Source: Pseudoalteromonas undina (GTDB taxonomy: Bacteria; Pseudomonadota; Gammaproteobacteria; Enterobacterales; Alteromonadaceae). From it: a stretch of 64,000 nucleotides of DNA. Shown here piece after piece: positions 21,230-35,540 of this stretch (position 1 is its first letter; each line of letters opens with the position of its first letter). The stretch spans positions 310,001 through 374,000 of the forward strand of contig NZ_AHCF03000004.1 in NCBI RefSeq assembly GCF_000238275.3. The letters run 5' to 3'. The position numbers and the translations under genes are program-made. The notes below the pieces were generated by a model. It was not told the DNA's origin. It was given only the letters and a program-made list of their open reading frames with translations, and did no database searches.

Positions 21230-23887
21230 TTATGGGTTAGCGATAACTACGTTGTCTATACGGTAAACTGCACCTTCACCTGTTCCCCACGCTGGGAACA
21301 TCATCAGTACATTGATGTCGCTAATGTCTAAACCTGCATCAAATAATGATTGCAACGTAAACGTGTATGTTTGCCACTGTCCAATAACAGGTACTTCACC
21401 TTCAACGCTTTGTGCAAGAGGAAGCTCTACCGCTGTTGCTGCACCTGTTGACTCAATTTTAAATGTCCATACTGAGTCAGGGTCATTTGGTGGTGTCACC
21501 ATTTTCATTTCAAATTGCACAACACCATTGGCTAATATTGCTGATGCATCAAAAGAGATACCGTCGTCCGCTAAAAAGCCCATTACTGTTGGTGTAGCAC
21601 CAATAACAAACTCAGCCACTGTGCCGTGATCAGCATCGTCAGTTTCTTCAGTCGGTGTAGAGCCACCACAACAGTCCCAAATACTCCACATATCTGCAGC
21701 AGTATCTTGGAAAATAGTGATTTCATCGCCTGCTGATGCACTAGGATCGTACATTTTAGCGTTATCAACACGGTAAACCGCACCTTCACCTGTGCCCCAT
21801 GCTGGGAATATCATCACTACATCAATGGCACTAACATCTAAACCTGCGCCCGCTAAGTCAGCGAATGTAAAGGTATAAGTTTTCCACTCACCTACAACAG
21901 GTGCATCGCCAGCATCTGTTAATGGTAATTCTACTGCGGTATCACCCTCATTAGATTCAATTTTCATTAACCAAGTTGCATCTGGGTTATTTGGGTTTGA
22001 CATCACTTTCACATCAAACTGTAGTACACCATTTTCTAAAATGCTGGTTGCATCAAATGGAGTGTCGCTACCACCAGCAGATGAACGAGTATTAAAGCCC
22101 ATTACAGTGGGGGCTTCGCCAATAGTGAATTCTGCAGTTAAGCCGTGTTCTGCATCGTCCATAACTTCTGATGGAGTAGAGCCGCCACAACAATCCCACA
22201 TCGGCCAATCTAAGTTTTGCTCGTCAGTAAATAAATCTACTGATGGTGATTCACCTACATCGCCTTCAATAGCCACATTGGTAATTAAATATTCAGCGCC
22301 TGCACCTGTTTGCCATGCTGGGAATACCATTAATACATCAATGGCACTTAAATCTAAGCCTCTTTCTTGTAGTAAAGAAAGTGGGAAGGTGTAAGTTTGC
22401 CATTGACCAGTAACAGGAGTAACACCTTCATTACTATCGCTAAGGGCTACATCGCCGGTATTAGGACCACCATCGCCCGCTTCGGCTTTCAATAGCCATG
22501 TAGTATCTGATGTTGGTGGCGTTACCACTTTCATATCAAAAGTTAGTCGACCATTTAGATCAAGAAGAAGTGATGCATCAAACGGAGATGAAGTGCCGGT
22601 AAAATCATCAGGGAAGTGACCGCCTCGAGTAGAAAACCCAAGCACAGTCCCGTTATTATCGTTAATGTTAAACTTAATTACATCGCCTTTGTCAGCGTCA
22701 GTAATTGTTTCAGGTGTTGTTCCACCACAACAATCCCATGCGATCCAGTTGGCATTTAAGCTGCCATCAAAAATATCAAGATTCTTTGCAACACCATCAC
22801 TTGGCGGAGTAGGTACAGGGGCTTTACCTTCTACAAGTGCATCGTCTAGGCTATCGTAACCTGGACGTACTGTTTCACAACCTTTACCAGTGGCCGGATC
22901 TGAGGCACATTCGTACACACGAACATAATCAATCTCAAAGCTTTGACCTTCTGCAAATGCAGCTGCATCAATACCTAAATTGTTTACATTTTCAGGCCAA
23001 TCGCCACCAACAGCATGGTTTAATATAAGGTAAAAGTCTTTATCAAATGGGGCATTATCCCAGTGAGTGGTAAGTTCGCCGTTACCTTGTTCAAAGTATT
23101 CAGCAAACCAACCTTTATGTTTAAGACCAACAGGCTCATCTTTAGAGTTGTAACGTACTTCAGAACGACGTTGTGTGGCGTATAAATAGCCATCTACGTA
23201 CCAGCGAATTTCTCCCTCTTGCCATTCGATTGCATAAGTATGAAAGTCATCTGCTGGGTTCATACCTTCAGGTAAGGCATAAGCTTTGCCTGAACTTGAG
23301 TTATTTGGCCACTCACGACCATAGTGAAGTGTGCCATGAATATTTGCTTCAACGGTGCCATCTTCAGCGACTGTTTTTAGATTAACTGCTTCTAAAATAT
23401 CAATTTCGCCAGAGCGCGGCCAAGTGCCATATACTTCATCGGTTGGCATCATCCAAAATGCGGGCCAGCTACCTTGACCAGAAGGCAACTTTGCACGCAT
23501 TTCAAAACGGCCATAAGTAAAGTCGGCGTTGTAGCGGGTGTTTAAACGGGCTGACGTGTATGGTTTTTCTGCACCTTCTTCTGCAGGTAAGGCGACTATA
23601 TTTAGTACACCGTCTTTAATGAAGGCATTTTCCTCACTGTCGGTGTAACATTGTTTTTCGTTGTTACCACCGCCAGCGCAGTTTAATTCAAAGTTCCACT
23701 TGTTAGTATCAATACTAGTGCTGTCAAACTCATCGCTCCATACCATACGCCAGTCTGAGACTGGTTCAGTAGGGTTTACTTTTTCAATATCGGTAGTAGT
23801 GGTCGCTGCGTCACCACCACAACCCGCCAAAGATGCTAATGAAATAGCAGCCAAAAGGCGAGTAATGCGTGTTGTTTCAATGTTCAT
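21230..23887 (-). CDS. GH16 beta-glucanase (laminarinase-type) lipoprotein with three WDCCGG modules
   Basis: 885 aa. The N-terminus LLAAISLASLAGCGG is a lipobox, so the mature protein starts at Cys23 or so and is probably outer-membrane anchored. Residues ~45-325 are a GH16 domain: DEFDSTSIDTNKW, YTSARLNTR, and the active site GEIDILEAV with nucleophile E161 and acid/base E166. This pattern and WPAFWMMP fit 1,3(4)-beta-glucanases such as laminarinase. Residues ~370-885 hold three repeats of about 160 residues, each beginning near a WDCCGG motif (W384, W564, W737) and ending in a [ML]FPAW-x-TG-x-GA-x-Y segment. They look like beta-sandwich carbohydrate-binding modules and resemble the C-terminal domain of Pseudoalteromonas ExoP, a comparison made from memory. 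It is the first gene of an operon with the TonB receptor. Confidence 0.9.
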   Translation of the reverse strand: MNIETTRITRLLAAISLASLAGCGGDAATTTTDIEKVNPTEPVSDWRMVWSDEFDSTSIDTNKWNFELNCAGGGNNEKQCYTDSEENAFIKDGVLNIVALPAEEGAEKPYTSARLNTRYNADFTYGRFEMRAKLPSGQGSWPAFWMMPTDEVYGTWPRSGEIDILEAVNLKTVAEDGTVEANIHGTLHYGREWPNNSSSGKAYALPEGMNPADDFHTYAIEWQEGEIRWYVDGYLYATQRRSEVRYNSKDEPVGLKHKGWFAEYFEQGNGELTTHWDNAPFDKDFYLILNHAVGGDWPENVNNLGIDAAAFAEGQSFEIDYVRVYECASDPATGKGCETVRPGYDSLDDALVEGKAPVPTPPSDGVAKNLDIFDGSLNANWIAWDCCGGTTPETITDADKGDVIKFNINDNNGTVLGFSTRGGHFPDDFTGTSSPFDASLLLDLNGRLTFDMKVVTPPTSDTTWLLKAEAGDGGPNTGDVALSDSNEGVTPVTGQWQTYTFPLSLLQERGLDLSAIDVLMVFPAWQTGAGAEYLITNVAIEGDVGESPSVDLFTDEQNLDWPMWDCCGGSTPSEVMDDAEHGLTAEFTIGEAPTVMGFNTRSSAGGSDTPFDATSILENGVLQFDVKVMSNPNNPDATWLMKIESNEGDTAVELPLTDAGDAPVVGEWKTYTFTFADLAGAGLDVSAIDVVMIFPAWGTGEGAVYRVDNAKMYDPSASAGDEITIFQDTAADMWSIWDCCGGSTPTEETDDADHGTVAEFVIGATPTVMGFLADDGISFDASAILANGVVQFEMKMVTPPNDPDSVWTFKIESTGAATAVELPLAQSVEGEVPVIGQWQTYTFTLQSLFDAGLDISDINVLMMFPAWGTGEGAVYRIDNVVIANP

Positions 23888-23949
23888 AACTGAACCCCGT
23901 TCAACTGATTATTGTCAGAATATAGTGTATTTGTTGATTTTTTCATTTT

Positions 23950-23963
23950 TGTAAGCGCTTACA
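23950..23963. promoter_or_regulatory. LacI-type operator TGTAAGCGCTTACA, copy 1
   Basis: Perfect 14-bp palindrome with central CG, 63 bases upstream of the GH16 start. Sites of this form are bound by LacI-family regulators of beta-glucoside or glucan use in Alteromonadales and relatives. Confidence 0.85.
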
Positions 23964-23980
23964 TTTTTCTGTGTGGTAAA

Positions 23981-23994
23981 TGTAAGCGCTTACA
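23981..23994. promoter_or_regulatory. LacI-type operator TGTAAGCGCTTACA, copy 2
   Basis: Identical to copy 1; centres are 31 bases apart, about three helical turns, so two dimers would lie on the same face. The regulator is not encoded nearby: the window's only LacI gene appears tied to a different palindrome. Confidence 0.85.
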
Positions 23995-24158
23995 AATAAT
24001 ATGGGGGATTCTCAACTGGGTCAAGAATTTGTTTAAATAATTTACAACTGGTTTACTTTTAGCGGGGTGTTTTTGTTAACAGGAACGGTTAAACGCCTAA
24101 GTAATGTTATAAATAGAGGTTTAAAAGGTGTACATGGATGTTTTCATTAGCTGTATTG

Positions 24159-24947
24159 CTATTTTTTAAATGGCATTATTAACAATTGCCTCAAGGATGA
24201 ATTTTGTTTGGGGTTTGGGTATTGGCTTAAACCAAGTGCAATATTTTTATCAGGCTGACTTGCCTGTGATTTATAGCTGCCAAAAAGTCTATCCCACCAA
24301 GTTACACTAAAGCCAAAGTTACTGTTTGTTTCTTCGGGGTTTTGGCTATGATGAATACGATGCAGTACTTGAGTTACAAGCACTAAACGCAGCGGCTTTT
24401 CAATAGAGTTGGGTAAACGAATATTCGCATGATTAAACAGTGCTAACCCATTGAGTGCAATTTCAAATATTAATACTGCAATAGCAGGTACACCCAAAGC
24501 GGTAACGGCAATCAATTTTATAAGTATGCTGAGTACAATTTCAATAGGATGAAATCGCAGACCGGTACTGGTATCAATATGTGCATCAGCGTGGTGTACG
24601 CGGTGCAAACGCCACAAAATAGGCACCTGATGAAAAAGCCGATGCTGCCAGTAAATAATTAAATCAAGCAAAAGTAAGCTGAGTATCACTGCAATGAGTG
24701 GTGAGACATTGAGTTGATTAAATAGCCCAATTCCATGCTGCTGATAATAAGCAGCAACCGCAGTTAATCCAACCGGCACTGTAAAGCGTGCAAGCAGGGT
24801 AGAAGTAAAGGTTAATCCAAAATTAGCAAACCAGCGTGACCTATTTTTAATAGTTGATTGGCGTGCAGGCTTTTGCCATTCAAGCAGCATCATTATTGCT
24901 AGTACGCTAAAAAAGAAGCCTAGCCGCCAATATACTTCATGACTCAT
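24159..24947 (-). CDS. Fatty acid hydroxylase / sterol desaturase superfamily protein
   Basis: 262 aa integral membrane protein with four to five helices and the superfamily's di-iron histidine motifs: HRLFHQ, HRVHHADAH and HRIHHSQ. Such enzymes insert hydroxyls or double bonds in fatty acyl chains, sterols or carotenoids, or cleave ether lipids. No specific substrate can be given. Its start overlaps the end of the CDP-alcohol phosphatidyltransferase gene by 11 bases, so it is the last gene of the operon starting near 34546, which suggests work on a membrane lipid. Confidence 0.85.
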   Translation of the reverse strand: MSHEVYWRLGFFFSVLAIMMLLEWQKPARQSTIKNRSRWFANFGLTFTSTLLARFTVPVGLTAVAAYYQQHGIGLFNQLNVSPLIAVILSLLLLDLIIYWQHRLFHQVPILWRLHRVHHADAHIDTSTGLRFHPIEIVLSILIKLIAVTALGVPAIAVLIFEIALNGLALFNHANIRLPNSIEKPLRLVLVTQVLHRIHHSQNPEETNSNFGFSVTWWDRLFGSYKSQASQPDKNIALGLSQYPNPKQNSSLRQLLIMPFKK

Positions 24948-25584
24948 GGTTTACCTCGTTGAGTGCGGTTTCTTGCTGTTTTAAGGTGTAATAACCTCCA
25001 TATATACGGGTGAAAATAGTTATCGCGCAGGCTATAGCAAATAAAACAGCAAGAATTGAAAAATACTGCGGCCAAATACAAAAGGCAATAAATAAGGCAA
25101 TGGTTTCTGTGCCTTCGGTTAAGCCATTTAAGTAGTAAAAACTTTTGTATTTAAATTGCGGTTTATCGAGTTTAAATTTTTCAGCGGCTATAGCAAAAGC
25201 TAAAAAGCTTGAGCCGGTACCTATAAAAGTCACAAGCAATAGTGACCCAGCAAGTGCATTTTGCTCAGGGTTGGTTAAAATAAATGCAAAAGGAATAAGC
25301 GCATAAAATAAAAAATCCAGAGTAATGTCTAAATATCCCCCAGCGCTTGAACTGCTCTGAGCATAACGCGCGAGTGCGCCATCAAGACCATCAAAAATGC
25401 GGTTAATACAAATTACAGCTAATGCGCCATACCAATATTCAAAAATAATTAGTGGCACAGCTAGTAAGCCAATTAAAAAACCTATTAAGGTTAACTGATC
25501 GGCACTCACTCCTTTTTTGTGCAGCTGTTTTACGCACGGAATAAGCACCGGTTTTATAAGTGGGGTAATAAATTTATCTAACAT
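24937..25584 (-). CDS. CDP-alcohol phosphatidyltransferase (YnjF-like)
   Basis: 215 aa membrane enzyme. It contains the complete family signature DG(x)2AR(x)8G(x)3D(x)3D, read as DGALARYAQSSSSAGGYLDI then TLD, whose acidic residues bind divalent metal. Enzymes of this family join a CDP-linked lipid and an alcohol to make a phospholipid head group; which alcohol is unknown. In E. coli a homologous gene, ynjF, also lies next to ynjBCD, so the linkage with this ABC importer is old. It overlaps both neighbours by 11 bases, showing translational coupling. Confidence 0.88.
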   Translation of the reverse strand: MLDKFITPLIKPVLIPCVKQLHKKGVSADQLTLIGFLIGLLAVPLIIFEYWYGALAVICINRIFDGLDGALARYAQSSSSAGGYLDITLDFLFYALIPFAFILTNPEQNALAGSLLLVTFIGTGSSFLAFAIAAEKFKLDKPQFKYKSFYYLNGLTEGTETIALFIAFCIWPQYFSILAVLFAIACAITIFTRIYGGYYTLKQQETALNEVNHES

Positions 25585-26227
25585 TTATATCACTTTGTAC
25601 GTTTAGATTGATGATTTTGCCATTTGTGGCTATTGCGTCACTTTCATCATGGGTGACCATAATGGCGGGTAACTGATATTCCCTAATTTGTGAAAACACC
25701 AGCTGACGGGTTTCAATACGTAATTGCTGATCAAGCTTACTAAAGGGTTCATCGAGTAAAATCGCTTTGGGTTTACTCAGTAATAGTCGCAGTAAAGCAA
25801 CACGGGCTTGCTGCCCACCGGAGAGAGTGTCTGGATGGCGCTTGGCCATGCCTTTTAGCCCAACGTGTGTAAGTGCTTCATCTATTTTCTGCTGGCGTTG
25901 TGTTTTATCCATTTTTGGCATGGCAAAGCTAATATTACCGCCAACAGATAGATGCGAGAATAGTAATGGGTCTTGATATAGCACAGCAACATGGCGTAAA
26001 TGGCTGGGCAAGGAACTAATATTAGTATCATTTAGCCACACCTCGCCAGTCGCATTAAAACCCGGAGGTAATGCGCCAGTAAGCCAATTTAATAAGCTAG
26101 ATTTACCGCTCCCTGATGGCCCCATAATAGTAAGAATTTCACCACCTTTAACCTGTTCATTCAAGCTCAGTAACAACTCGTTTTGACGATAAAGCTGACA
26201 ATTTTTAATTTGTAATGATGGCTGCAT
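25574..26227 (-). CDS. ABC importer ATPase (YnjD-like)
   Basis: 217 aa nucleotide-binding subunit, the same length as E. coli YnjD. Walker A is GPSGSGKSS, the Q-loop VLYQDPLLF, the signature LSGGQQARVALLRLLL, Walker B AILLDEPFSKLD, and the switch histidine is in VTHDESDA. It would drive import together with the fused permease upstream and the binding protein. The short length, without a C-terminal regulatory domain, fits the thiamine/iron/YnjD group rather than MalK-like ATPases. The gap to the permease gene is 24 bases. Confidence 0.9.
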   Translation of the reverse strand: MQPSLQIKNCQLYRQNELLLSLNEQVKGGEILTIMGPSGSGKSSLLNWLTGALPPGFNATGEVWLNDTNISSLPSHLRHVAVLYQDPLLFSHLSVGGNISFAMPKMDKTQRQQKIDEALTHVGLKGMAKRHPDTLSGGQQARVALLRLLLSKPKAILLDEPFSKLDQQLRIETRQLVFSQIREYQLPAIMVTHDESDAIATNGKIINLNVQSDINVR

Positions 26228-26251
26228 TAAACGCCCTTTGATGTATTCATA

Positions 26252-27970
26252 TTATGCTTGCTTGTTATTAAAAACATACCGAGGTAGTCCCCATGCCAGT
26301 ATAAAGCCGAGAAGAGGTAAGCCCATTTGCAGTATTGCATACACAGCACTGGTTCGCCTACTTGCACCATTGGCAAGTGTTACGGCTTCGGTGGTTATGG
26401 TGGCTATTCGGCCACCCCCTGCTAACTGGGTTGATAAATACTGGCCAAAACTTATTGCCAACCCCAGCGCCATCGCAATTAAAATAGGCGCAAATAGTTG
26501 TGGCAATTTAACTTGTATAAACACCTTCCATGGGCTTGAGCCTAAGCTTGCAGCAACACGCGCTAATCTTGGGTCTAAACGCCTGTAACTATCGGCAATA
26601 GATAAAAAAACATAGGGTAAAACAAACAGCAAGTGTACAAATATCACATTAAAAAAAGCATGCTGACTATTTAGCAATTGCTGTAGCCACACAATACCAA
26701 ATAAAAAGGCGATACTGGGTACCAACAACGGCAGGTATATAATTAACAGTGCCCACTTCGCCAAAGGTTTAGCCGTGATTTGCTCTGCTTCTAAACATAG
26801 TAGCACCAAAATAGTGGCAAAACCCGAGCTAACCACGCCAACCACTAAGGTATTAAATAAAGGAGTGTAAATGTGTGTAAAGGCATTTTCAAAGTGTAGT
26901 AATACCAAACTTGAGGGTAAGGTATCCGGAAAACGCCAATAGCCAGCTACTGACCAAAATACTAATCCAATTAACGCAGCTGCAATGAAGACTAAAATTA
27001 CGCAAGTAACGATATAAGTAAAAGCACGAACAAGTTGGTGAGCATAATGGCGTCGGCCGTTGATGAGTGACTGACTAAAAATCATGGCACTGATTTTTTC
27101 AAGCAATAGCCAAATTAGCAGTAGTCCAACAGTGATCGCTAATTGTAACAGAGCACCCGCTGAGGCCTTTATGCGCAGGGTTAAATCTACATCGTTAAAC
27201 CAATGCATGATAGCAACGGCTAAAGTAGGGGGCGTATTTGGCCCAAGTATCAGTGTCATCTCAACGCTCGCACTAGCATAAGCAAGTACTGCAAAAATGG
27301 GCAAACGTAACAGTGGGTATAAATTAGGTAGCACCACTTTAAAAAATGCCACCATGGGGTAATAACCTAAATTAATGGCAATTTGATGCTGCATTCGTAG
27401 CTTTTTGCCAAGTTCAGGCTGCGCTAAAATACCCAATGCAATCAGTAGTAAAAAAGGCAGCTCTTTAAGTACAAGCCCAATAATAATGCTCCAGCCAAAA
27501 GCGTCATAAGGTAATGAGCCCTCAGGAGCTAATTGCCAGCCCGTTAACCAAGGCGAAAATAAGCGCGTAAATAATCCCGATGGCGCGATTAAAAAACTGA
27601 CCGCAATTGCCGCTGCAGCGTGGGGAATAACCAGTATGGGACTCAATACATATTCAATTCGTTTTAGCCATACACTATTAAAAAATGCAGCCAGCATAAT
27701 AATCATGAGCGCAAACGCTATTAATGTACTAATTAGTCCAGTGCGTATGCTCAGGCCTATCATTTGTGAAAGCCCCGGTGTATCCCATAAAACATTAAAC
27801 CCAGCCAAACTCATGTTGGTTTTATTCAAGGCAGGCGCCCAGCCAAAGGCAGGCAACATTACTCCCATTAGGCCGCCTAATACAGGTATTGTTAACAGTG
27901 CCAGCAAACAGTAAGGGGTTACTTTGACTAGGCGTGAGAATAAATCAGCTGAATGGAGTACCTTACTCAT
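26252..27970 (-). CDS. ABC importer permease, duplicated (YnjC-like)
   Basis: 572 aa with roughly twelve membrane segments in two homologous halves, each carrying an EAA-type loop: near ALGILAQPELGKKLRMQHQI-NLGYYP in the first half and DPRLARVAASLGSSPWKVFIQ in the second. Two permease domains in one chain are typical of the ThiP, FbpB and YnjC group, which import thiamine, ferric iron or unknown solutes. Its start codon overlaps the stop of the binding-protein gene (ATGA, 27967-27970). Confidence 0.88.
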   Translation of the reverse strand: MSKVLHSADLFSRLVKVTPYCLLALLTIPVLGGLMGVMLPAFGWAPALNKTNMSLAGFNVLWDTPGLSQMIGLSIRTGLISTLIAFALMIIMLAAFFNSVWLKRIEYVLSPILVIPHAAAAIAVSFLIAPSGLFTRLFSPWLTGWQLAPEGSLPYDAFGWSIIIGLVLKELPFLLLIALGILAQPELGKKLRMQHQIAINLGYYPMVAFFKVVLPNLYPLLRLPIFAVLAYASASVEMTLILGPNTPPTLAVAIMHWFNDVDLTLRIKASAGALLQLAITVGLLLIWLLLEKISAMIFSQSLINGRRHYAHQLVRAFTYIVTCVILVFIAAALIGLVFWSVAGYWRFPDTLPSSLVLLHFENAFTHIYTPLFNTLVVGVVSSGFATILVLLCLEAEQITAKPLAKWALLIIYLPLLVPSIAFLFGIVWLQQLLNSQHAFFNVIFVHLLFVLPYVFLSIADSYRRLDPRLARVAASLGSSPWKVFIQVKLPQLFAPILIAMALGLAISFGQYLSTQLAGGGRIATITTEAVTLANGASRRTSAVYAILQMGLPLLGFILAWGLPRYVFNNKQA

Positions 27971-29229
27971 TGGCTTGCTCCATAACGGGTTTCCCAGCCA
28001 GTATTAATTGCCTCCACCCAGCTCGGATGTGGCTCACTGAGTGTACGTTTAACACTATTTAGAGGCAGTGCGCTAGGATGCGGCTGTACGGTTTTAAATA
28101 AGCCCTGCTGCTCTGCGCTTAAGCTGGTTTGAATTAATACCGTTTTGTCACCCCATATAGCAGTTTTTTGTTTATGCGCTTGCGCTGCGGGGCTTAATAA
28201 AAAGTCAGCCACTAATTGCGCACTTTGCTGGTGGCTTGCATTATAAGGAATAGCGACAAAGTGAGTGTTACTTAAGCTACCATCGGCCATTGCATAACTT
28301 CTTATACTTTTTGGTAAATCATAGCGCTTTACCGCAGCCGGTACTTCTGGTGCCGAAAAAGTAAAGCCAATACTAAGCTCGGTATCGTCTATTAAGCGGC
28401 GCATTTGTATACCGCTTTGCATGAAGTATTCGCCATTGCGCCACAGATTAGGGTGCAATTTATTTAGAAACGTCCACAACGGATCAAGTACTTGGGCTGT
28501 GTTTTTATCATTAGCAGGTTGATTTAGTTTTGCTTGTAGCATTGCATCGCTATGTTGGTGTAATACCACTAATGCATATTTTAAAAAGCTCATCCCTAAA
28601 AAGTCAGGGGGTTTGGGGTAACTAAATCGGCCTGGGTTTGCTTTACTCCAGCTCAATAACTTATTAAGGGTTTGAGGAGGAGAGCTCGTTGCTAGCGTAT
28701 CGTAATAAAAAGTCAGTGATGCCTGCCCCCAAGGGGCTTCCATTCCTTGAGTGGGTAAACCAAAATCAAACAACACGCTGGGATTGTTTTCTGGATTGGT
28801 GTAAATAAAATTAGGCAATTTATCAGCCCAGTCTTTTAGTAAAAGCCCGTGCTTACTCATAGCTGCAAAGTTAGCCCCATTGATCCAAATTAAATCGACA
28901 CTGCCTTGAGTGTGATTATTTGCTGATTTTTCTGCGAGTACGCGGCTAACGGCCTCGCTGGTGTCGCTGAGCTTTATATGGACTAACTCAATGTTATATT
29001 TAGCTTTTACTTGCTCAGCCGCCCACTGAATATAGGCATTTATTTGCGCATCACCGCCCCAAGCATAAAAATATACGCTTTGGTCTTTACCTGAGCTTTC
29101 AACTTGCTGCCAACGGCTTTGTAATTGTGTATTTGCTAGGCTTTTAAAACTAAAAATAAGGCAAATACAAAACGCGACACAACATAAGCTGTATCGCGAT
29201 AATGTTTGCCAAAATTTATTGGCGAGCAT
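27967..29229 (-). CDS. ABC importer periplasmic binding protein (YnjB-like)
   Basis: 420 aa with an N-terminal signal peptide (hydrophobic residues ~14-31, cleavage near SLANT). The mature part looks like a type II solute-binding protein: VYFYAWGGDAQINAYIQWAAEQVKAKYNIELVHIKL near the start, VDLIWINGANFAAMSKHGLL, then PWGQASLTFYYDTL. This resembles E. coli YnjB. The ligand is unknown; relatives bind thiamine, polyamines or ferric iron. Its first 14 bases overlap the end of the DUF547 gene, and it is coupled to the permease gene. Confidence 0.87.
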   Translation of the reverse strand: MLANKFWQTLSRYSLCCVAFCICLIFSFKSLANTQLQSRWQQVESSGKDQSVYFYAWGGDAQINAYIQWAAEQVKAKYNIELVHIKLSDTSEAVSRVLAEKSANNHTQGSVDLIWINGANFAAMSKHGLLLKDWADKLPNFIYTNPENNPSVLFDFGLPTQGMEAPWGQASLTFYYDTLATSSPPQTLNKLLSWSKANPGRFSYPKPPDFLGMSFLKYALVVLHQHSDAMLQAKLNQPANDKNTAQVLDPLWTFLNKLHPNLWRNGEYFMQSGIQMRRLIDDTELSIGFTFSAPEVPAAVKRYDLPKSIRSYAMADGSLSNTHFVAIPYNASHQQSAQLVADFLLSPAAQAHKQKTAIWGDKTVLIQTSLSAEQQGLFKTVQPHPSALPLNSVKRTLSEPHPSWVEAINTGWETRYGASQ

Positions 29230-30022
29230 TTAAATCCCAGTTGTAGTCTAAAAACTTAACTTTCATGTTGTTATTTTTAAGTGCTTTTTGCTGAGCGGGT
29301 GTCAGCTTTAGTGCTTTAGGGTATTGCATAAAAAACTGCTGTAGCGTATTTGCGCCTTTAAAGCCTTGTTCAAAATCATCGCCGTACCACTTAAATATTG
29401 AAGACATAGTTAGCGTGTTATCTTGCGCTATATTTCGAGTCATGTCTGATAAAAAACGCATCGTTTGCTCTTGCAATTGGCTTTCTAAATCAGTGGCTGT
29501 GTAGGCTTCTTCACGTAGTGCTGGGCAGCCAATACTGGCACAATTTACAGCAAAGTGAATACGTGGGTCGTTGTACTTACCACTGCCACGTATTAAACCA
29601 TGTTCTATATCATCAAGGCTGCGAGTTTTATCAAGTAATGGCACAAACTCTTTGCTCCACGGTGAGCTAAAAAAACTGCCTAACTCTTTAATTGATTTAA
29701 GATCTGGGTATTTTGTTAATATCAGCTCAACAGTAAAGGCGTTATACGCGTTGATTAAAAACGCCAGCTGCTTAGGTTTTTCCCATGTATCAAACTCATT
29801 TTGCGTAACAGCCGATAACGAATCTAAATAAGCTTTAAGTTCGCTGCGCTTAGCTTTTATTGCTGAGTAATTAACCTCAGTGCTGTGACCATGATTAATA
29901 GCTACAACATGCTTGTTTAATAATGCATTCCAGCTGTCATGCATATTTTGAGCTTTGCTTGCAAACGATGTTGCAAGCAAAGCAGAACCTAATAATAGCG
30001 CTTTTAAAGGTGTTTTAAACAT
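29216..30022 (-). CDS. DUF547-family secreted protein
   Basis: 268 aa from the ATG at 30022, one base after the stop of the upstream gene; a longer frame from 30109 would start inside that gene. Residues 1-24 (MFKTPLKALLLGSALLATSF...) form a signal peptide. The body has DUF547 features: KQLAFLINAYNAFTVELIL, IHFAVNCASIGCPALREEAYTA and the closing FKWYGDDFEQG. The C-G-x-P region and conserved Asn/Cys suggest a papain-like or transglutaminase-like fold, but no activity is known. In marine gammaproteobacteria such genes often lie next to the VTT-reductase gene upstream, as here. Confidence 0.85.
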   Translation of the reverse strand: MFKTPLKALLLGSALLATSFASKAQNMHDSWNALLNKHVVAINHGHSTEVNYSAIKAKRSELKAYLDSLSAVTQNEFDTWEKPKQLAFLINAYNAFTVELILTKYPDLKSIKELGSFFSSPWSKEFVPLLDKTRSLDDIEHGLIRGSGKYNDPRIHFAVNCASIGCPALREEAYTATDLESQLQEQTMRFLSDMTRNIAQDNTLTMSSIFKWYGDDFEQGFKGANTLQQFFMQYPKALKLTPAQQKALKNNNMKVKFLDYNWDLNARQ

Positions 30023-30023
30023 A

Positions 30024-32177
30024 TTAGCCTCTGCGCCAGGCGTGGTATTTTTCCAGCAAGTTAAGTACCTTTTCAGGAGCATGAGCACGTTTCCATTCGC
30101 CCGCCACATATTTGTTACCTTCAGCCCATGTTGGGTAGCTGTGAATGGTGCCCAATATTTTATTAAGTCCTAAACCGTGTTTCATGGCTAACACAAACTC
30201 AGCAATTAAATCGCCAGCGTGTTCAGATACCACAGTGACACCGAGGATTTTGTCTTTACCTTTAGGGGTGATCACTTTAATAAAACCATTGTTAGCGCTT
30301 TCGGTAATGGCGCGATCTAGCTCTTCAAATTCAAAGCGGGTGATTTCATAGTCTATGCCTTTTTCAATCGCTTCTTGTTCATTTATGCCCACCCGTGCTA
30401 CTTCAGGGTCAATAAATGTGGTCCACGGAATGACACGGTAATCCACTTTAAACTTTTTAAGGTTACCAAATAAGCCATTTACTGCTGCGTACCAACCCTG
30501 GTGAGCAGCTACGTGTGTAAACTGATACGGGCCTACAATATCGCCTGCGGCAAAAATATTAGGGTAGAGTGTTTCAAGGTATTCATTTGTGACTACAGTG
30601 CGGCTCGTTTCAATACCTAGTTCTTCAAGGCCGTAACCTTTAAGGCGAGCGCTTCGGCCAACAGCACATAGTAGCTCATCGTATTCAATATCGATTTCGT
30701 TGTCGTTATGTTTTACCACAATGAATTTTTTGCCATCGCGCTCTTCACAGCGCAGTGCCTGATGCGAAGTTAAAATGTTTACGCCGCTTTGCGTTAGCGC
30801 TTCGTGAGCAAATTTAGACACCTCTAAGTCTTCTTTGATCATAATGCGTTCAGCCATTTCAATTTGTGTAACGTTTGAACCTAAACGCGCAAAGCTTTGT
30901 GCCAATTCGCTACCAATTGGCCCACCGCCAAGTACTACAAGCTTTTTAGGGGCATCGTCAAGCTCAGCAAACTTGCTCCATAACGTATCGCTGGTTACAT
31001 AGCCGGTTTCTTCAATACCCGGAAGTGGCGGTACAAATGGGCGTGCGCCAGTGGCAATAACAATAGTACGGGCAGTGAGTGTTTGCGTGCCGCCATTATT
31101 TAATTTAATTTCCACCGTCCACGGGTCGATAAGTTTGGCGTAGCCTTTTACAACATCTACGCCTAAATTTGTGTAGCGCTCAACACTGTCGTGTGGAGCT
31201 ATATCGGCAATCACTTGCTGTACACGTGCCATTATTTTTTTAAACGAAAACTGCGGTGTCGTGCTTTGTAGCCCATATTTTTCAGCTTGGCGCATTTGCT
31301 GGGCTACTTTTGCACTTTTAATAATAGCTTTACTAGGTACACAGCCAGTGTTTAAGCAGTCGCCGCCCATTTCGCCGGCTTCAATTAGGGTTACTTTGGC
31401 TTTAACCGCTGCTGCAATATAGCTTGTCACTAAGCCGCCAGCACCCGCGCCAATAACAATCATGTTACGGTCGAACTTTTTAGGTTTAGTGTAGTTTTTA
31501 TAAACACGACGCTTTTTTATTGCATTTATAAGGCTTTTTGCAATTAACGGAAATACCCCTAATAACGCAAACGATAAAATTAAATCCAGCGATAAAATGC
31601 CAGATAAGCTCTCTATTTGCGCAAGTTGTGTACCTGCGTTTACAAATACAAATGTACCCGCCAGCATGCCTACTTGGCTTACCCAGTAAAAAGTCCATGA
31701 CTTAATAGCGGTTAAACCCATTAATAAATTAATTAAAAAGAACGGAAAAACAGGCACTAAGCGCAGCGTAAATAAGTAAAATGCGCCTTCTTTTTCAACC
31801 CCAGTATCTATAGCGGCTAAGCGTTCAGGAAAGCGTTTTTTTATGGTATCGCGCAATAAATAACGTGACACTAAAAATGCTAACGTAGCACCAATGCTTG
31901 AGGCAAACGAGGCAACTAATAGCCCTTGAGCCAAACCAAATAATGCACCAGCGGCTAGCGTTAAAATGGCTGCACCGGGCAATGATAGCGCGGTCACTAA
32001 TATATAAAGTAAAAAGAACCCTCCGATCACCAAAAGCGGTGATTGAGCTTTGTACTGATCAAATTGTGCCATTGATCCTTTTAGCCCGTCGAGGGTAAGA
32101 AGCTGGTTTAGGTCATAAAAAAAGAATAAGCCGACACCTATCGCCGCCAGTAATAACAAACTTAGTTTTTTTAACAT
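30024..32177 (-). CDS. Fusion of VTT/TVP38 membrane domain and flavin disulfide reductase
   Basis: 717 aa from the ATG at 32177 (GAGAGA upstream); the frame opens at a TTG 12 bases earlier. Residues ~1-225 are a TVP38/TMEM64-type (VTT) membrane domain with G-rich ALSLPGAAILTLAAGALFG and VFPFFLINLLMG. Residues ~240-717 are a class I pyridine nucleotide-disulfide oxidoreductase: FAD site VIGAGAGGLVTSYIAA, redox pair GGDCLNTGCVPSK, NAD(P) site VVLGGGPIGSELAQ, second FAD motif FAAGDIVG and the dimer-domain end GTIHSYPTWAE. It resembles mercuric reductase and dihydrolipoamide dehydrogenase but lacks the paired C-terminal cysteines of MerA, so mercury reduction is not supported. The membrane tether suggests electron transfer to a membrane or envelope thiol partner. 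Confidence 0.88.
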   Translation of the reverse strand: MLKKLSLLLLAAIGVGLFFFYDLNQLLTLDGLKGSMAQFDQYKAQSPLLVIGGFFLLYILVTALSLPGAAILTLAAGALFGLAQGLLVASFASSIGATLAFLVSRYLLRDTIKKRFPERLAAIDTGVEKEGAFYLFTLRLVPVFPFFLINLLMGLTAIKSWTFYWVSQVGMLAGTFVFVNAGTQLAQIESLSGILSLDLILSFALLGVFPLIAKSLINAIKKRRVYKNYTKPKKFDRNMIVIGAGAGGLVTSYIAAAVKAKVTLIEAGEMGGDCLNTGCVPSKAIIKSAKVAQQMRQAEKYGLQSTTPQFSFKKIMARVQQVIADIAPHDSVERYTNLGVDVVKGYAKLIDPWTVEIKLNNGGTQTLTARTIVIATGARPFVPPLPGIEETGYVTSDTLWSKFAELDDAPKKLVVLGGGPIGSELAQSFARLGSNVTQIEMAERIMIKEDLEVSKFAHEALTQSGVNILTSHQALRCEERDGKKFIVVKHNDNEIDIEYDELLCAVGRSARLKGYGLEELGIETSRTVVTNEYLETLYPNIFAAGDIVGPYQFTHVAAHQGWYAAVNGLFGNLKKFKVDYRVIPWTTFIDPEVARVGINEQEAIEKGIDYEITRFEFEELDRAITESANNGFIKVITPKGKDKILGVTVVSEHAGDLIAEFVLAMKHGLGLNKILGTIHSYPTWAEGNKYVAGEWKRAHAPEKVLNLLEKYHAWRRG

Positions 32178-32194
32178 GCTATCTCTCAAACGGT

Positions 32195-34546
32195 TTAAAA
32201 GTTATGGGTAAGCGTGAGCTTAGCGTTAATTGGTAATTCTGGGAACGCGAGTGTCGCGCCAAAATAGCCACCTTCAAATACAGGGCGCCAGTTTTGCTGA
32301 TCGGTAATATTATTTACATCAAGCCTCAATTTAGTTGCTGAGGTAAACGCATAGCTGGTATTAACATTTAAGGTGTGCTGATCGCGAATGTATACGGTAG
32401 CCAAAAAATCTAAAGGGTAGCTTTTAGTATACAGGGCAGAAAATCCAGCTTGCCACTGAGAAGTAATTGTATAGTTAGCGTTTAAGCTTAACGATTGCTC
32501 TGGGATCCCTTGTACTTGACGGTTTGAGGGAGCAAAAGCTGTGTAACTGGGTGCGCCAATGCTGTTACCCGCAATAATATCGGGACGCGAATTATCAAAC
32601 GCATCGGCTATTTGAGCTGAGTCTTGGCCTGTCGCAGAGTTATCATAACGGGCATCAATGTAACTGTAGCCTGCGCTTACCCAGTAAGGGTAAGCGTCGT
32701 AAAATACTTGGCTTTCGAATCCGGTTGTACGAATACCAGTATTGCTACCATCGCGATTACGTAAGCTGCGGCGTTGGCTAAATACAGCAGCATCTGCATA
32801 CCAGTCGCTTTGTGTTGGCGCATATTTCACGCCAAACTCGACTAAAGTATTTTCCGTAGCAAAATTTTGTGCGCTAATTGTATTGTCACCACCTAACGTA
32901 TTACCGCCGGCCATGCTGTTAGAGGTGGCTTCGTTATAACTTGCTGCCGCATAAGTGGTTAAATCGTCATTAACTGAGTAATTAACGCTCAACTGCGCTG
33001 ATTGCAGGGTATCGTTAATGCTATCACTAGCCGCTATTTGACCTTGAGGCGCAATCGGGTCGCGTGCTTCTACATCATAGTAATCAACACGATAGCCAGC
33101 ACTGGTGCGTAAGCTGTCAGTCCATTGTGAGTCTTGTTGAATGGCAATGCCGGTTTGCCATGAGCGTGAGTCTGTAGTGTCTGATAAATTAAAATCACCA
33201 CTGCCATCATTGTTAATATCGTACTGACCACCAGGGGATACATATACACCGGGGCGTAGCTCTACCAAACGTGCTTTTTGAGTATCAGTTAATGGAATGC
33301 GGCGGTTTGAAAGTGGGCCGGTTAAATCAATAGGTGTGTCGGCTTCAGTAGTAAATTGGCTGTAACCCAATACTTTATTATAACGAACATCAACGGCGAA
33401 TAAGGTTTGCTGCTCATCACTCCATTGATAGGTGAGTTCAGTGCGGTTTTGTGCGGTATCGGCGCCATCAATTATTTCAACAAAACTATTTTGTGCTATT
33501 TCTTCGCGCTGCAAATGTTGAAAGTAAGTAATGTTTTTAATCGACATTACATCAGACAGTGCGCGCTTATAAATACTGTGAACTAAATAAGTGGTTGCTT
33601 GATTGAGATTATCAGGATCGGTAAGCACACGGCTGGTGTCTATTTTGACTTGTCCTGTAGGCGATATAATAGACCCTGCGCTAGGCACTGTGCTGCCATT
33701 CGCTTGTAACCCTTGACCAGTAATATACAGATTATGATCGATAAGCGCTTGGGTTGGGCGGTTTATACCAGCGTTATCGGTAAATTCTGTTTGGTACAGT
33801 TCAAAGTTAATGTCCCAACTGCTTTTGTCATCCGGTAAAATTTTTAATGCCGCAAACAAGCTATCACTTTGTGTGGCTGAATAGTCATAATAACTACCCT
33901 GATCAATATGCTCATAGCTAACACGTAAGCCAATTTTATCCTCAACAATCGGTGCGTTGTAATCTACTTGGGCACTATACTTATCCCAACTTCCTGCAGA
34001 CACCTTCACATTGCCTTTACGCTGATCAGTTGAGGCTGTTTTAGAGTGTAAGTTTACAAAGCCACCGTTACGTTGGCTTGAACCAAACAATACAGGTGGT
34101 GCGCCTTTAACCACATCGATTTGTTCTATCGCATTAAACGACAACGGCACACCAAAACCATTATTACCCGCTTGGCGTCGAGTACCATCTTGAAATAACT
34201 CACCTAACTGGCCGCGGATCGTCGGTAAACTTGGTGCACCAAAACCACTTGCAGCGTATGTATTAGGACTTACTGCCAGAACATCGTGCAATGTTGTTAT
34301 GTTAAGTTGCTCAATTAACTCTTTAGAAATAGGGGTCACAGAGCGAGCTATGTCTTGCAAAGCTAGGTTGTCGCCAAAAGGACCGTTTACTGTGGTGTTT
34401 TTAATAGAGAGGTTTTTAGATTTAAGCGCTTGACCTGCCACTTCAATTCGCTCAATGGGGTCAGAGCTAGTTGTTTCATTAGCCTGAGCAGCTAAAGCTA
34501 CATTTAATAGGGGGGCGAGGGTTAAAGCTAAATACGTGTATTTCAA
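32195..34546 (-). CDS. TonB-dependent receptor, first gene of the YnjBCD-type operon
   Basis: 783 aa. No ATG gives a sensible start; I chose TTG at 34546 because AGAGAAA precedes it and the next residues (KYTYLALTLAPLLNVALAAQ) make a signal peptide. The plug has IARSVTPISKELIEQLNITT and VLAVSPNTYAASGFGAPSLPTIRGQ, the style of FhuE/FpvA-like siderophore receptors, and VKGAPPVLFGSS. The barrel ends LTLTHNF. No Fur box or TPP riboswitch is visible upstream. It ends 17 bases before the VTT-reductase start and is probably co-transcribed with the ABC importer, so both may carry one substrate through both membranes. Confidence 0.85.
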   Translation of the reverse strand: MKYTYLALTLAPLLNVALAAQANETTSSDPIERIEVAGQALKSKNLSIKNTTVNGPFGDNLALQDIARSVTPISKELIEQLNITTLHDVLAVSPNTYAASGFGAPSLPTIRGQLGELFQDGTRRQAGNNGFGVPLSFNAIEQIDVVKGAPPVLFGSSQRNGGFVNLHSKTASTDQRKGNVKVSAGSWDKYSAQVDYNAPIVEDKIGLRVSYEHIDQGSYYDYSATQSDSLFAALKILPDDKSSWDINFELYQTEFTDNAGINRPTQALIDHNLYITGQGLQANGSTVPSAGSIISPTGQVKIDTSRVLTDPDNLNQATTYLVHSIYKRALSDVMSIKNITYFQHLQREEIAQNSFVEIIDGADTAQNRTELTYQWSDEQQTLFAVDVRYNKVLGYSQFTTEADTPIDLTGPLSNRRIPLTDTQKARLVELRPGVYVSPGGQYDINNDGSGDFNLSDTTDSRSWQTGIAIQQDSQWTDSLRTSAGYRVDYYDVEARDPIAPQGQIAASDSINDTLQSAQLSVNYSVNDDLTTYAAASYNEATSNSMAGGNTLGGDNTISAQNFATENTLVEFGVKYAPTQSDWYADAAVFSQRRSLRNRDGSNTGIRTTGFESQVFYDAYPYWVSAGYSYIDARYDNSATGQDSAQIADAFDNSRPDIIAGNSIGAPSYTAFAPSNRQVQGIPEQSLSLNANYTITSQWQAGFSALYTKSYPLDFLATVYIRDQHTLNVNTSYAFTSATKLRLDVNNITDQQNWRPVFEGGYFGATLAFPELPINAKLTLTHNF

Positions 34547-34781
34547 ATCGTGTTTCTCTATTGTTATATGTTGACGTACACAAAAGACCAAGACAGATAA
34601 AAATATCTTTCAATCAATTGCTAATATTTTTATTTTTTATCCTAGCGCTTAAATAATAGTGCCTTTAAATAACTCAACTTAAGATCAGTTTAGGTTTAAT
34701 TTTAATTAATTGAAAATAAAAATACGCTTATACGGTCTTACTTGCCAATTAGTTTATTTATATCTTTTTTAAGGAAATTTT
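34547..34781. promoter_or_regulatory. Divergent promoter region, eight-gene operon and DoxX-like gene
   Basis: 235 AT-rich bases between the leftward TonB receptor and the rightward DoxX-like gene. I found no perfect palindrome, Fur box or known riboswitch. A CTTAA-rich part around 34640-34700 is the most likely control segment. Confidence 0.4.
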
Positions 34782-35195
34782 ATGACAGATTCAATCAATA
34801 CAGATTTACAAACTCGTTTGCAATGGTCACTTTTATCGCTGCGCTTAGGGGTTTTCATAGTTATGGTAATGTGGACACTGGATAAATTTGTAAATCCGGG
34901 GCATAGCGCCCGTATCTTTGAACATTTTTATGGGATCAGTGGCTCTACCGATACTATTGCTTATATTTTAGGTGCACTGCAATTATTGCTAGTAATAGCA
35001 TTTTTAGTCGGTTTTAAAAAACGTATTACTTACGGTGTTATTTTTATAATGCATGGACTATCAACGCTGTCTTCTTACAACCAGTACATAGATGGCTTTA
35101 ATAATTTACTGTTTTTTGCAGCATGGCCTATTTGGGCTGCGTGTTTTGCGCTTTATTTATTACGCGATCAAGACGTAAAATTTACCGTTAAATAA
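34782..35195 (+). CDS. DoxX-like small integral membrane protein
   Basis: 137 aa with four hydrophobic segments (about residues 20-34, 55-75, 82-97, 104-124). The first helix region SLRLGVFIVMVMWTLDKFVNP and the LQLLLVIAFLVGFKKRITYG part resemble the DoxX/DUF417-like group. AAGGAAA stands before the ATG. Function unknown; DoxX proteins elsewhere work with membrane redox enzymes. It is divergent from the operon that contains a membrane-linked disulfide reductase, so a shared role is possible but unproven. Confidence 0.68.
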   Translation: MTDSINTDLQTRLQWSLLSLRLGVFIVMVMWTLDKFVNPGHSARIFEHFYGISGSTDTIAYILGALQLLLVIAFLVGFKKRITYGVIFIMHGLSTLSSYNQYIDGFNNLLFFAAWPIWAACFALYLLRDQDVKFTVK

Positions 35196-35540
35196 TAAGC
35201 AAAAAAAATGGTTATAAGCGTTAGCCTATAACCAATAAAGTACACAGGGAGTGTAGGAAGTTCTGTTGTGCACAGTAAGCGCTTAGCAAGCCATTTACTG
35301 TGTGTAATTAAAAGCACTTTTTGGTGCTTTAAGTTGCTTTAATAAATACGTACAATAATAAAAGCAAAGCTAATGCCAATTTTTAACAGTATGAATTTTA
35401 TAGGTTTTTATATTGTTTGGATTGTGGCTTTGCATAATGCAGGTAAATTTTTCTATATTGCAACGGTAAAAGTTACCTACTTTGCAATATGAAAAAATGG
35501 CACTGTTTTGGAATCCGATTCGACTAAAAGCAGCGCTGAT
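35196..35540. other. Convergent intergenic region with several hairpins
   Basis: No gene seen. Hairpins: TGGTTATA...TATAACCA (35211-35235), probable end of the DoxX-like transcript; CACAGTAA...TTACTGTG (35271-35302), enclosing TAAGCGCTTA; AAAGCAC...GTGCTTT (35311-35330); and a nested element at 35455-35490. The last is described among the findings. The RluA gene ends at 35541 in GCTGATTT-type symmetry that may help end its transcript. Confidence 0.55.
35455..35490. repeat. Nested double inverted repeat
   Basis: Outer arms ATATTGCAA (35455-35463) and TTGCAATAT (35482-35490) enclose inner arms GGTAA and TTACC around AAG (35465-35477). It has no U tract, so it is not a standard terminator. Confidence 0.6.

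Follow-up and report, generated by a model that had tools for sequence, protein, structure and literature searches.

The operon and its divergent partner

We analysed 64,000 nucleotides of the genome of Pseudoalteromonas undina (RefSeq assembly GCF_000238275.3, contig NZ_AHCF03000004.1, positions 310,001 to 374,000 of the forward strand; the whole stretch is called the window). Eight open reading frames (ORFs) on its minus strand, from 24159 to 34546, join a TonB-dependent receptor, a membrane domain fused to a flavin reductase, a YnjBCD-type importer and two lipid enzymes. The same promoter-like element, a predicted site for an extracytoplasmic function (ECF) sigma factor, lies upstream of this operon and, on the opposite strand, upstream of a divergent DoxX gene, and it recurs before related operons in other genomes. 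The features are listed below with their coordinates in the window.

32195..34546, minus strand: TonB-dependent receptor (PF07715 and PF00593), TTG start at 34546
30024..32177, minus strand: VTT (DedA/TVP38) membrane domain fused to a MerA-like FAD/NAD(P) reductase (PF09335, PF07992 and the dimerisation domain PF02852)
29216..30022, minus strand: DUF547 protein (PF04784, 96 bits) with a hydrophobic, signal-like N-terminus by eye
27967..29229, minus strand: YnjB-type periplasmic binding protein (PRK11622, 508.2 bits against a cut-off of 203)
26252..27970, minus strand: YnjC-type fused permease (PF00528, BPD_transp_1)
25574..26227, minus strand: YnjD-type ATPase (PF00005, ABC_tran)
24937..25584, minus strand: YnjF-type CDP-alcohol phosphatidyltransferase (PF01066, CDP-OH_P_transf), catalytic motif intact
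24159..24947, minus strand: fatty acid hydroxylase/desaturase-family membrane protein (PF04116, FA_hydroxylase, 103.6 bits)
34585..34612, minus strand: promoter-like element TGAAA-N18-GGTCT towards the eight-gene operon, predicted ECF sigma site
34711..34738, plus strand: opposite-strand copy of TGAAA-N18-GGTCT towards DoxX, predicted ECF sigma site
34782..35195, plus strand: DoxX-family membrane protein, divergent partner of the operon (PF07681, 29 bits against a cut-off of 23.6)
35209..35234, no strand assigned (minus in the scan): terminator-like hairpin 3′ of DoxX, 11-pair stem with a T tail

With the start codons used in a preliminary description of this DNA, the intergenic distances, read from the receptor gene to that of the hydroxylase, are 17, 1, −14, −4, 24, −11 and −11 nucleotides, exactly as that description had given them, and Pfam and NCBIfam models confirmed every domain of the eight families it had named. 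Its proposal of a single transcript is supported by scans of 22000 to 36500, in which neither sigma-70-like promoters (26 sites against 35.3±6.9 in shuffled sequences) nor terminators (16 against 14.7±3.5) exceeded chance. A strong terminator-like hairpin at the 5′ end of the binding-protein gene (29173-29198) is apparently present in the close relative L084 and not in four others, and we regard it as a chance structure. A further TTG upstream of the receptor start, at 34591, would fall before the end of the −10 element. All eight genes of the preliminary description are thus present, but it had omitted the divergent DoxX gene and the promoter element shared with it, and had not foreseen regulation through an ECF-type stress element.

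Conservation of the gene set

The comparison used 95 loci, made up of 76 named loci minus the distant L155 and L157 to L159 (72 loci) together with other collected loci. Three pairs were duplicates, each of a single genome present in two collections, which leaves 92 distinct loci and reduces the receptor-led ones from 46 to 43. Gene order was tallied over 82 distinct loci with one reductase ORF above 800 bits, the window itself not being counted; the ten loci left out comprise seven without a reductase and three with a broken or cut reductase ORF. By their names, many of the named loci belong to marine genera of cold water (Pseudoalteromonas, Colwellia, Psychrosphaera, Psychromonas, Psychrobacter, Glaciecola). 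A search of 59 genomes of the window's own family with the VTT-reductase (717 aa query) found a relative of almost full length in 15, that of the window included.

Neighbourhood analysis, proposed in the preliminary description as a check, showed an identical order of all eight genes in 35 of the 82 loci, and because the full order recurs in this way, the array is not chance. Sixteen loci (Psychrobacter) keep the order minus the receptor and DUF547, eight (Psychromonas) are without the receptor alone, and the remainder hold smaller or cut sets. The hydroxylase is missing from the Glaciecola loci and from the E. coli locus described below. Since the Psychrobacter, Psychromonas and Glaciecola loci lack various of them, the receptor, DUF547 and the hydroxylase are optional members. 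In 75 of 78 loci the importer is followed by the CDP-alcohol transferase, and only L061 and the two loci of genome G085 deviate; this count covers the loci with at least 5 kb of sequence downstream. The expectation that the receptor and the lipid genes would be conserved with the rest therefore holds for the transferase, whereas the receptor and the hydroxylase are dispensable.

In a protein tree made by a quick method, 19 Psychrobacter (Moraxellaceae) sequences fell inside a 36-row set with Pseudoalteromonas, Colwellia and Psychrosphaera (Shimodaira-Hasegawa-like approximate likelihood-ratio test 95). This nesting of Psychrobacter with Alteromonadales suggests horizontal transfer among marine bacteria. 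The nested loci are L096, L109, L110, L115-L119, L121-L124, L126, L128-L130, L148, L152 and L156, sixteen of them in the six-gene form. The reductase ORF is in pieces in L143, L147 and L154, which are possibly decaying copies or sequencing errors. MsrAB, a further pyridine-nucleotide oxidoreductase and an upstream DUF1499 gene surround the operon in the Glaciecola-type loci L074, L131 and L133 (tested in L074, assigned by clustering in the other two).

The importer, the lipid enzymes and the E. coli counterpart

The counterpart in E. coli is ydjX-ydjY-ydjZ-ynjA-ynjBCD-ynjE-ynjF. The preliminary description had pointed to the same locus through ynjBCD, ynjF and ynjE, but the VTT proteins YdjX and YdjZ encoded there went unmentioned. 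As in the window operon, VTT/DedA proteins, YnjB, YnjC, YnjD and YnjF stand together; BLASTP identity of the window proteins is 40% with YnjB, 37% and 28% over two segments with YnjC, 49% with YnjD, 56% with YnjF and 33-34% with YdjX/YdjZ. The E. coli locus differs in having separate VTT proteins, a 4Fe-4S protein, an AhpD-like protein and a sulfurtransferase, and it is without the TonB receptor, DUF547, the fused reductase and the hydroxylase, all four of which the window operon has. No window operon protein matched YdjY, YnjA or YnjE at E≤1e-3.

With YnjB over its curated cut-off, and YnjC and YnjD homologues and YnjF alongside, the importer belongs to the YnjBCD type, and the operon is a new variant of the known, unexplained YnjBCD/YdjXYZ system. 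YnjBCD and YnjF of E. coli K-12 are annotated as putative or by domain only, and we know of no substrate or product for them. YnjBCD has been described as enriched in a Marinobacter clade from sub-zero brine (PMC9207381). An AlphaFold2 (AF2) model of the window's binding protein (predicted local distance difference test score, pLDDT, 92.6) matched binders of the 2-aminoethylphosphonate type and of hexose phosphate, polyamines, ferric iron and metal citrate similarly, and no ligand was assigned by fold.

CDP-alcohol phosphatidyltransferases carry the motif DxxDGxxARxxxxxxxxGxxxDxxxD. The residues D65, G66, D68, G69, A72, R73, G82, D86 and D90 of the YnjF-type motif are invariant in 29 sequences including E. 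coli YnjF, which places the window protein in this family. Its matches to the inositol-phosphate phosphatidyltransferases AIPS and PIPS were weak (66.7 against 180 bits and 43.3 against 170 bits) and below the equivalog cut-offs, and we rejected both identities. The hydroxylase is distant from OlsE (90.6 bits, cut-off 475). The receptor has a weak resemblance to FpvA-type and siderophore receptors, with 111.8 bits against a cut-off of 223.5 for the siderophore-receptor model. For DUF547, the AF2 model (pLDDT 87.5) had no fold match in the Protein Data Bank (PDB) at E≤0.001.

The membrane-tethered reductase

The PDB structures nearest to the flavin half of the fusion protein are mercuric reductases. 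All of 81 sequences compared contain its redox pair CLNxGC (CxxxxC) and a C-terminal motif HxYPTxxE, whose invariant Tyr is matched by a Tyr in the alignment with MerA. In dihydrolipoamide and glutathione reductases the catalytic His stands at that position, and because Tyr replaces it in all 81 sequences, the label 'disulfide reductase' given in the preliminary description appears doubtful, and we do not use it; the protein is MerA-like. MerA has a C-terminal cysteine pair. The window reductase is like MerA in its closest solved structures and the aligned Tyr and differs from it in its C-terminus, which is without cysteines, and in a score of 389.8 bits against the equivalog cut-off of 454.45. 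It also falls below the cut-offs for RclA (210.3 bits against 740) and for hypothiocyanous acid (HOSCN) reductase (235 bits against 650).

Pyridine nucleotide oxidoreductase domains are named in the text of PMC10127716 as the commonest fusion partners of COG0398 DedA proteins, and the window protein has the identical domain fusion. In other lineages, relatives of the VTT-reductase adjoin ArsS (L137:4899-11683, L145:3362-7697) and ArsM-like and ArsC-like genes (L134:9956-13785).

A promoter element shared with DoxX

Side-by-side reading of the upstream DNA gave the pattern TGAAA(G/T)-TTATTT-N11-GGTCT. In its loose form, TGAAA-N17/18-GGTCT, it occurs upstream of the receptor in 40 of the 46 receptor-led loci, with 0.02 loci expected from shuffles, while the reversed pattern had no match upstream of the receptor in these 46 loci. 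After removal of duplicates the element is found in 37 of the 43 distinct receptor-led loci, always with a spacer of 18 (37/37), and 19 of these 37 carry sites on both strands. DoxX is present in 32 of the 46 receptor-led loci, and the same protein cluster in 44 loci; a reverse site accompanies it in 21 of the 32 receptor-led loci with DoxX, compared with 1 of the 14 without. By eye, the conserved element does not resemble a Fur site.

A candidate sigma factor and its gene set

A strict search of the 59 family genomes (one mismatch allowed) found 42 sites against 11 for the reversed control. We read 29 of these loci, and eight sites precede genes for EGKCG-repeat precursors. GshA-like genes lie 3′ of three sites (L206, 615 bits against 393; L187 and L210 by eye), and among the other sites are ones upstream of genes for a DsbC-like protein (157 bits, below the cut-off of 215) and an AhpC/TSA-family protein, two upstream of the receptor of the operon itself and one upstream of an ECF sigma gene. 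Several precede genes without an obvious stress link, and eight of the 29 lie inside longer ORFs, among them L192 and L199, where these are extended frames of a receptor and an EGKCG gene. One study describes EGKCG proteins as precursors associated with MNIO and compares them to copper storage proteins, and it reports that bufferins chelate excess copper (PMC12452194).

The loose element occurs 16 times in the window's genome and its reversed control 12 times. One of these sites precedes an EGKCG precursor gene followed by those of the maturases HvfB (441.7 bits, cut-off 360) and HvfC (306 bits, cut-off 142); others precede MsrA (144 bits, cut-off 108), a catalase-family gene and CutA1 (175 bp away).

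The ECF sigma gene that bears the element belongs to the PRK12517 subfamily (263 bits, cut-off 197), which is over this cut-off in 53 of the 59 family genomes, including the window's own (294 bits). We read 24 sigma loci, the 20 highest-scoring and four chosen ones out of these 53 genomes, related genomes among them not being independent. In all 24, a site with 0-2 mismatches and a spacer of 18 ends 8 nt before the start codon; GAAA is present in 23, GGTC in 24 and the last T in 19. One example is L250:2751-4066, to which 23 further loci can be added. The window genome's own sigma site reads GGAAA-N18-GGTCT, with one mismatch. In the sigma loci, G and C at codon third positions are fixed within an otherwise variable stretch, which speaks for constraint at the DNA level rather than the protein level, and the predicted promoter, ending 8 nt before the start codon, implies a very short or absent leader for the PRK12517 gene. 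The two sites of the window are nearly identical to this conserved upstream element of the sigma gene, as would be expected of members of a PRK12517-type ECF regulon.

A gene for a 250-aa DUF3379 protein (237 bits) follows the sigma gene in the window's genome. It looks like an anti-sigma factor, which would be of a new family; a literature search for DUF3379 returned no match. Three reductase-bearing family genomes without PRK12517 over the cut-off (G282, G298 and G300) have no element in their loci L083, L082 and L080, but this co-occurrence of sigma factor and element is only a trend, drawn from 15 genomes in which others with the sigma factor are also without the element.

MNIO peptide genes near the operon in other genomes

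Genes for MNIO-modified peptides stand close to the operon, or to parts of it, in some more distant genomes that do not belong to the group with this promoter, among them G107, G085 and G300. In G107, a bufferin-like precursor (28.6 bits, cut-off 60), an MNIO (295 bits, cut-off 310) and a DUF2063-like gene (phmmer E 6e-4) lie upstream of YnjBCD-YnjF on the same strand. Roughly 0.5 kb separates them from the gene of the binding protein, and the VTT-reductase is found some 3 kb past YnjF. G085 has a set of receptor, binding protein, permeases, ATPase and DUF547 standing divergently beside two BufA2 precursors (80.8 and 79.2 bits, cut-off 60), MNIO and DUF2063; a second copy lies about 6 kb from a BufA2-like ORF, recognized by similarity to the first copy, and separate VTT and MerA-like genes follow. 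In G300, a family-less precursor-like ORF, an MNIO (293 bits, below 310 but over the Pfam cut-off) and a DUF2063-like ORF are found about 7 kb from the VTT-reductase.

Across 23 genomes (26 MNIO genes), an MNIO lies within 25 kb of the operon in five, against 0.39 expected (Poisson P=5e-5), and within 10 kb in three, against 0.15 expected (P=5e-4); both limits were chosen after the distances had been seen. Three of the 23 genomes have no MNIO gene at all. A wider search for YnjB in the taxonomic order of G107 returned only G107 itself over the cut-off among 200 genomes, which left no further genome of that order to which the MNIO linkage might extend.

In the window's genome the precursor and the MNIO maturase lie on another contig (L215), outside the operon, which is thus not itself a bufferin/oxazolin MNIO cluster. 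The likeness to bufferin and Buf_EGKCG-oxazolin clusters consists in EGKCG genes under the same element, in DoxX and, for G107, G085 and G300, in the linkage of MNIO genes with the importer or the reductase. The core of these clusters is made up of precursor, MNIO, DUF2063 and DoxX, and TonB does not figure in the main text of PMC12452194.

A possible role in envelope stress

We consider it very probable that the operon is under ECF control, as predicted from its upstream sites, and probable that it is tied to copper- or oxidant-related peptide stress. Our overall reading, in which we place slightly less than even confidence, is that of an ECF-controlled envelope-stress operon which imports a small head group that YnjF couples to lipid. 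The import and lipidation of a head group, taken alone, is held more tentatively. It is suggested by the importer and the CDP-alcohol transferase: as they form a near-constant pair, they are most simply read as taking up a small polar alcohol and making it the head group of a lipid.

On this proposal, the eight genes and the divergent DoxX would form an envelope-stress module under a PRK12517-type ECF sigma factor. Copper or oxidant would damage envelope thiols and thereby release the sigma factor, which would induce MNIO-modified peptides, sulfoxide repair and the eight-gene module. The TonB receptor and YnjBCD would import a small polar compound, the receptor perhaps widening the capture of a scarce one, and YnjF would join it to the phosphatidyl group of CDP-diacylglycerol. 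The resulting lipid may also be modified by the hydroxylase. The VTT domain would then carry it from one side of the inner membrane to the other; a lipid-moving function is possible for VTT/DedA proteins, and their eukaryotic homologues are reported as scramblases in the text of PMC10127716. Meanwhile the MerA-like reductase would spend cytoplasmic NAD(P)H on reducing a metal or an oxidized species, and DUF547 would act on a bond in the periplasm. A bolder version, which we think rather unlikely, makes YnjBCD-YnjF-VTT the import-and-lipid arm of an envelope response to copper and oxidants, with MNIO-modified copper-binding peptides as the other arm. The salvaged compound would become an undescribed phospholipid distributed by the VTT protein, the tethered reductase would keep the process reduced, and PRK12517 with DUF3379 would be a new ECF class that senses the stress.

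A parallel is provided by the ECF factor RpoE2 of H. influenzae, which controls msrAB and a DoxX/UPF0276/DUF2063 cluster and is linked to hypochlorite (PMC7907618). As in the RpoE2 and SigE regulons, the regulon predicted here places an ECF factor over methionine sulfoxide repair and a DoxX cluster. RpoE2 and Neisseria SigE, however, belong to ECF group 13 with a small zinc-type anti-sigma factor, whereas in the window's genome PRK12517 is followed by the larger DUF3379 protein and the predicted regulon includes the importer/lipid operon. Because the anti-sigma type differs, we treat RpoE2 as a parallel and not as a case of shared membership.

Several observations weigh against the stress-module proposal. 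Most sites in the window's own genome are chance, because they are scarcely more numerous than those of the reversed control, and a lone site that is not conserved is no proof of anything. Only 2 of the 24 sigma loci have the leading T of TGAAA, and single-locus shuffles equalled the best sigma-site match in 0 to 28 of 100 (20 loci). Six of the 43 distinct receptor-led loci are without the element, as are the Psychrobacter loci, and it is found in one of the 43 loci counted as receptor-less (the split-ORF locus L143 was counted there although the element precedes its receptor fragment). In the E. coli genome, used as a control, MNIO was not matched. The E. coli version is described as FNR-activated, with a slight induction of ynjAB by BaeR (PMC3688515, PMC2731931), and an rpoE2 deletion in H. 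influenzae is reported to have kept wild-type resistance to oxidative stress in vitro (PMC7907618). Since E. coli uses FNR and has no MNIO match, and the Psychrobacter loci are without the element, the core module does not appear to be tied to PRK12517 stress control everywhere; such control is a predicted property of the receptor-led branch.

Two other readings share parts of this evidence. The receptor and YnjBCD might recover a copper- or thiol-loaded peptide or chelate, made or damaged in stress, which the MerA-like reductase would strip or reduce, the lipid enzymes being secondary. The gene neighbourhoods of G085, where the importer set, receptor and DUF547 stand by bufferin precursors without YnjF, and of G107, where precursor, MNIO and DUF2063-like gene lie upstream of YnjBCDF on one strand, agree with such a route, as does the similarity in fold between the binding protein and metal-citrate and ferric-binding proteins. 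Its fold neighbours equally include binders of polyamines, hexose phosphate and the like, though, many operons have no receptor, and the transferase that follows the importer so regularly would be needless for pure recovery; we judge this reading unlikely. RclC is DoxX-like, and the reductase and DoxX could by analogy with E. coli RclA and RclC serve in defence against reactive halogens (HOCl/HOBr), with the importer and lipid genes repairing oxidized membrane components. The divergent DoxX under the same element as the MerA-like reductase, the matching sites at genes for MsrA and for members of the catalase and AhpC/TSA families, the MsrAB gene next to the operon in L074 (in L131 and L133 by clustering) and the hypochlorite precedent of RpoE2 (PMC7907618) are all consistent with this. 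That the reductase is neither RclA (210 against 740 bits) nor HOSCN reductase (235 against 650) speaks against it, and we consider it improbable.

The arsenic genes beside VTT-reductase relatives (ArsS over the cut-off in L137 and L145, ArsM-like and ArsC-like genes below it in L134) raise the idea that the operon imports or finishes an arsenic-containing head group in the handling of arsenosugars or arsenolipids. ArsS had no match in the window's genome, and the ArsM family PRK11873 was not over its cut-off in the 18 genomes searched, in which the arsenosugar-specific ArsM model was not used; by these searches the window's genome does not have an arsenosugar synthesis locus. As the shared element, moreover, points to thiol and peptide genes, this explanation is very improbable. 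An ordinary iron or siderophore uptake operon is less probable still: the receptor's weak FpvA-type similarity and its sub-threshold siderophore-receptor match would suit it, but the receptor is optional, the lipid enzyme is near-constant and the element does not look Fur-like.

If the stress-module proposal is right, the relatives of YnjBCD gain a first testable role, being connected with a defined promoter element, a candidate for the sigma factor and a set of thiol- and copper-stress genes; DUF3379 may then serve as an anti-sigma factor, and a role is suggested for VTT-reductase fusions as well. It raises the questions of which stress induces the operon, which lipid YnjF makes and whether MNIO peptides act together with a lipid response.

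A selenium link was considered and rejected: a SelD-N-terminal-type oxidoreductase lies by some loci (TIGR03169 over the cut-off in L135, others by clustering), and SelD is over its cut-off in 5 of 18 genomes, the window's not among them. The window lies on contig C4 of the assembly (774670 bp), which may be a second chromosome, and the sigma factor and the EGKCG cluster lie on the 2.49-Mb contig C3.

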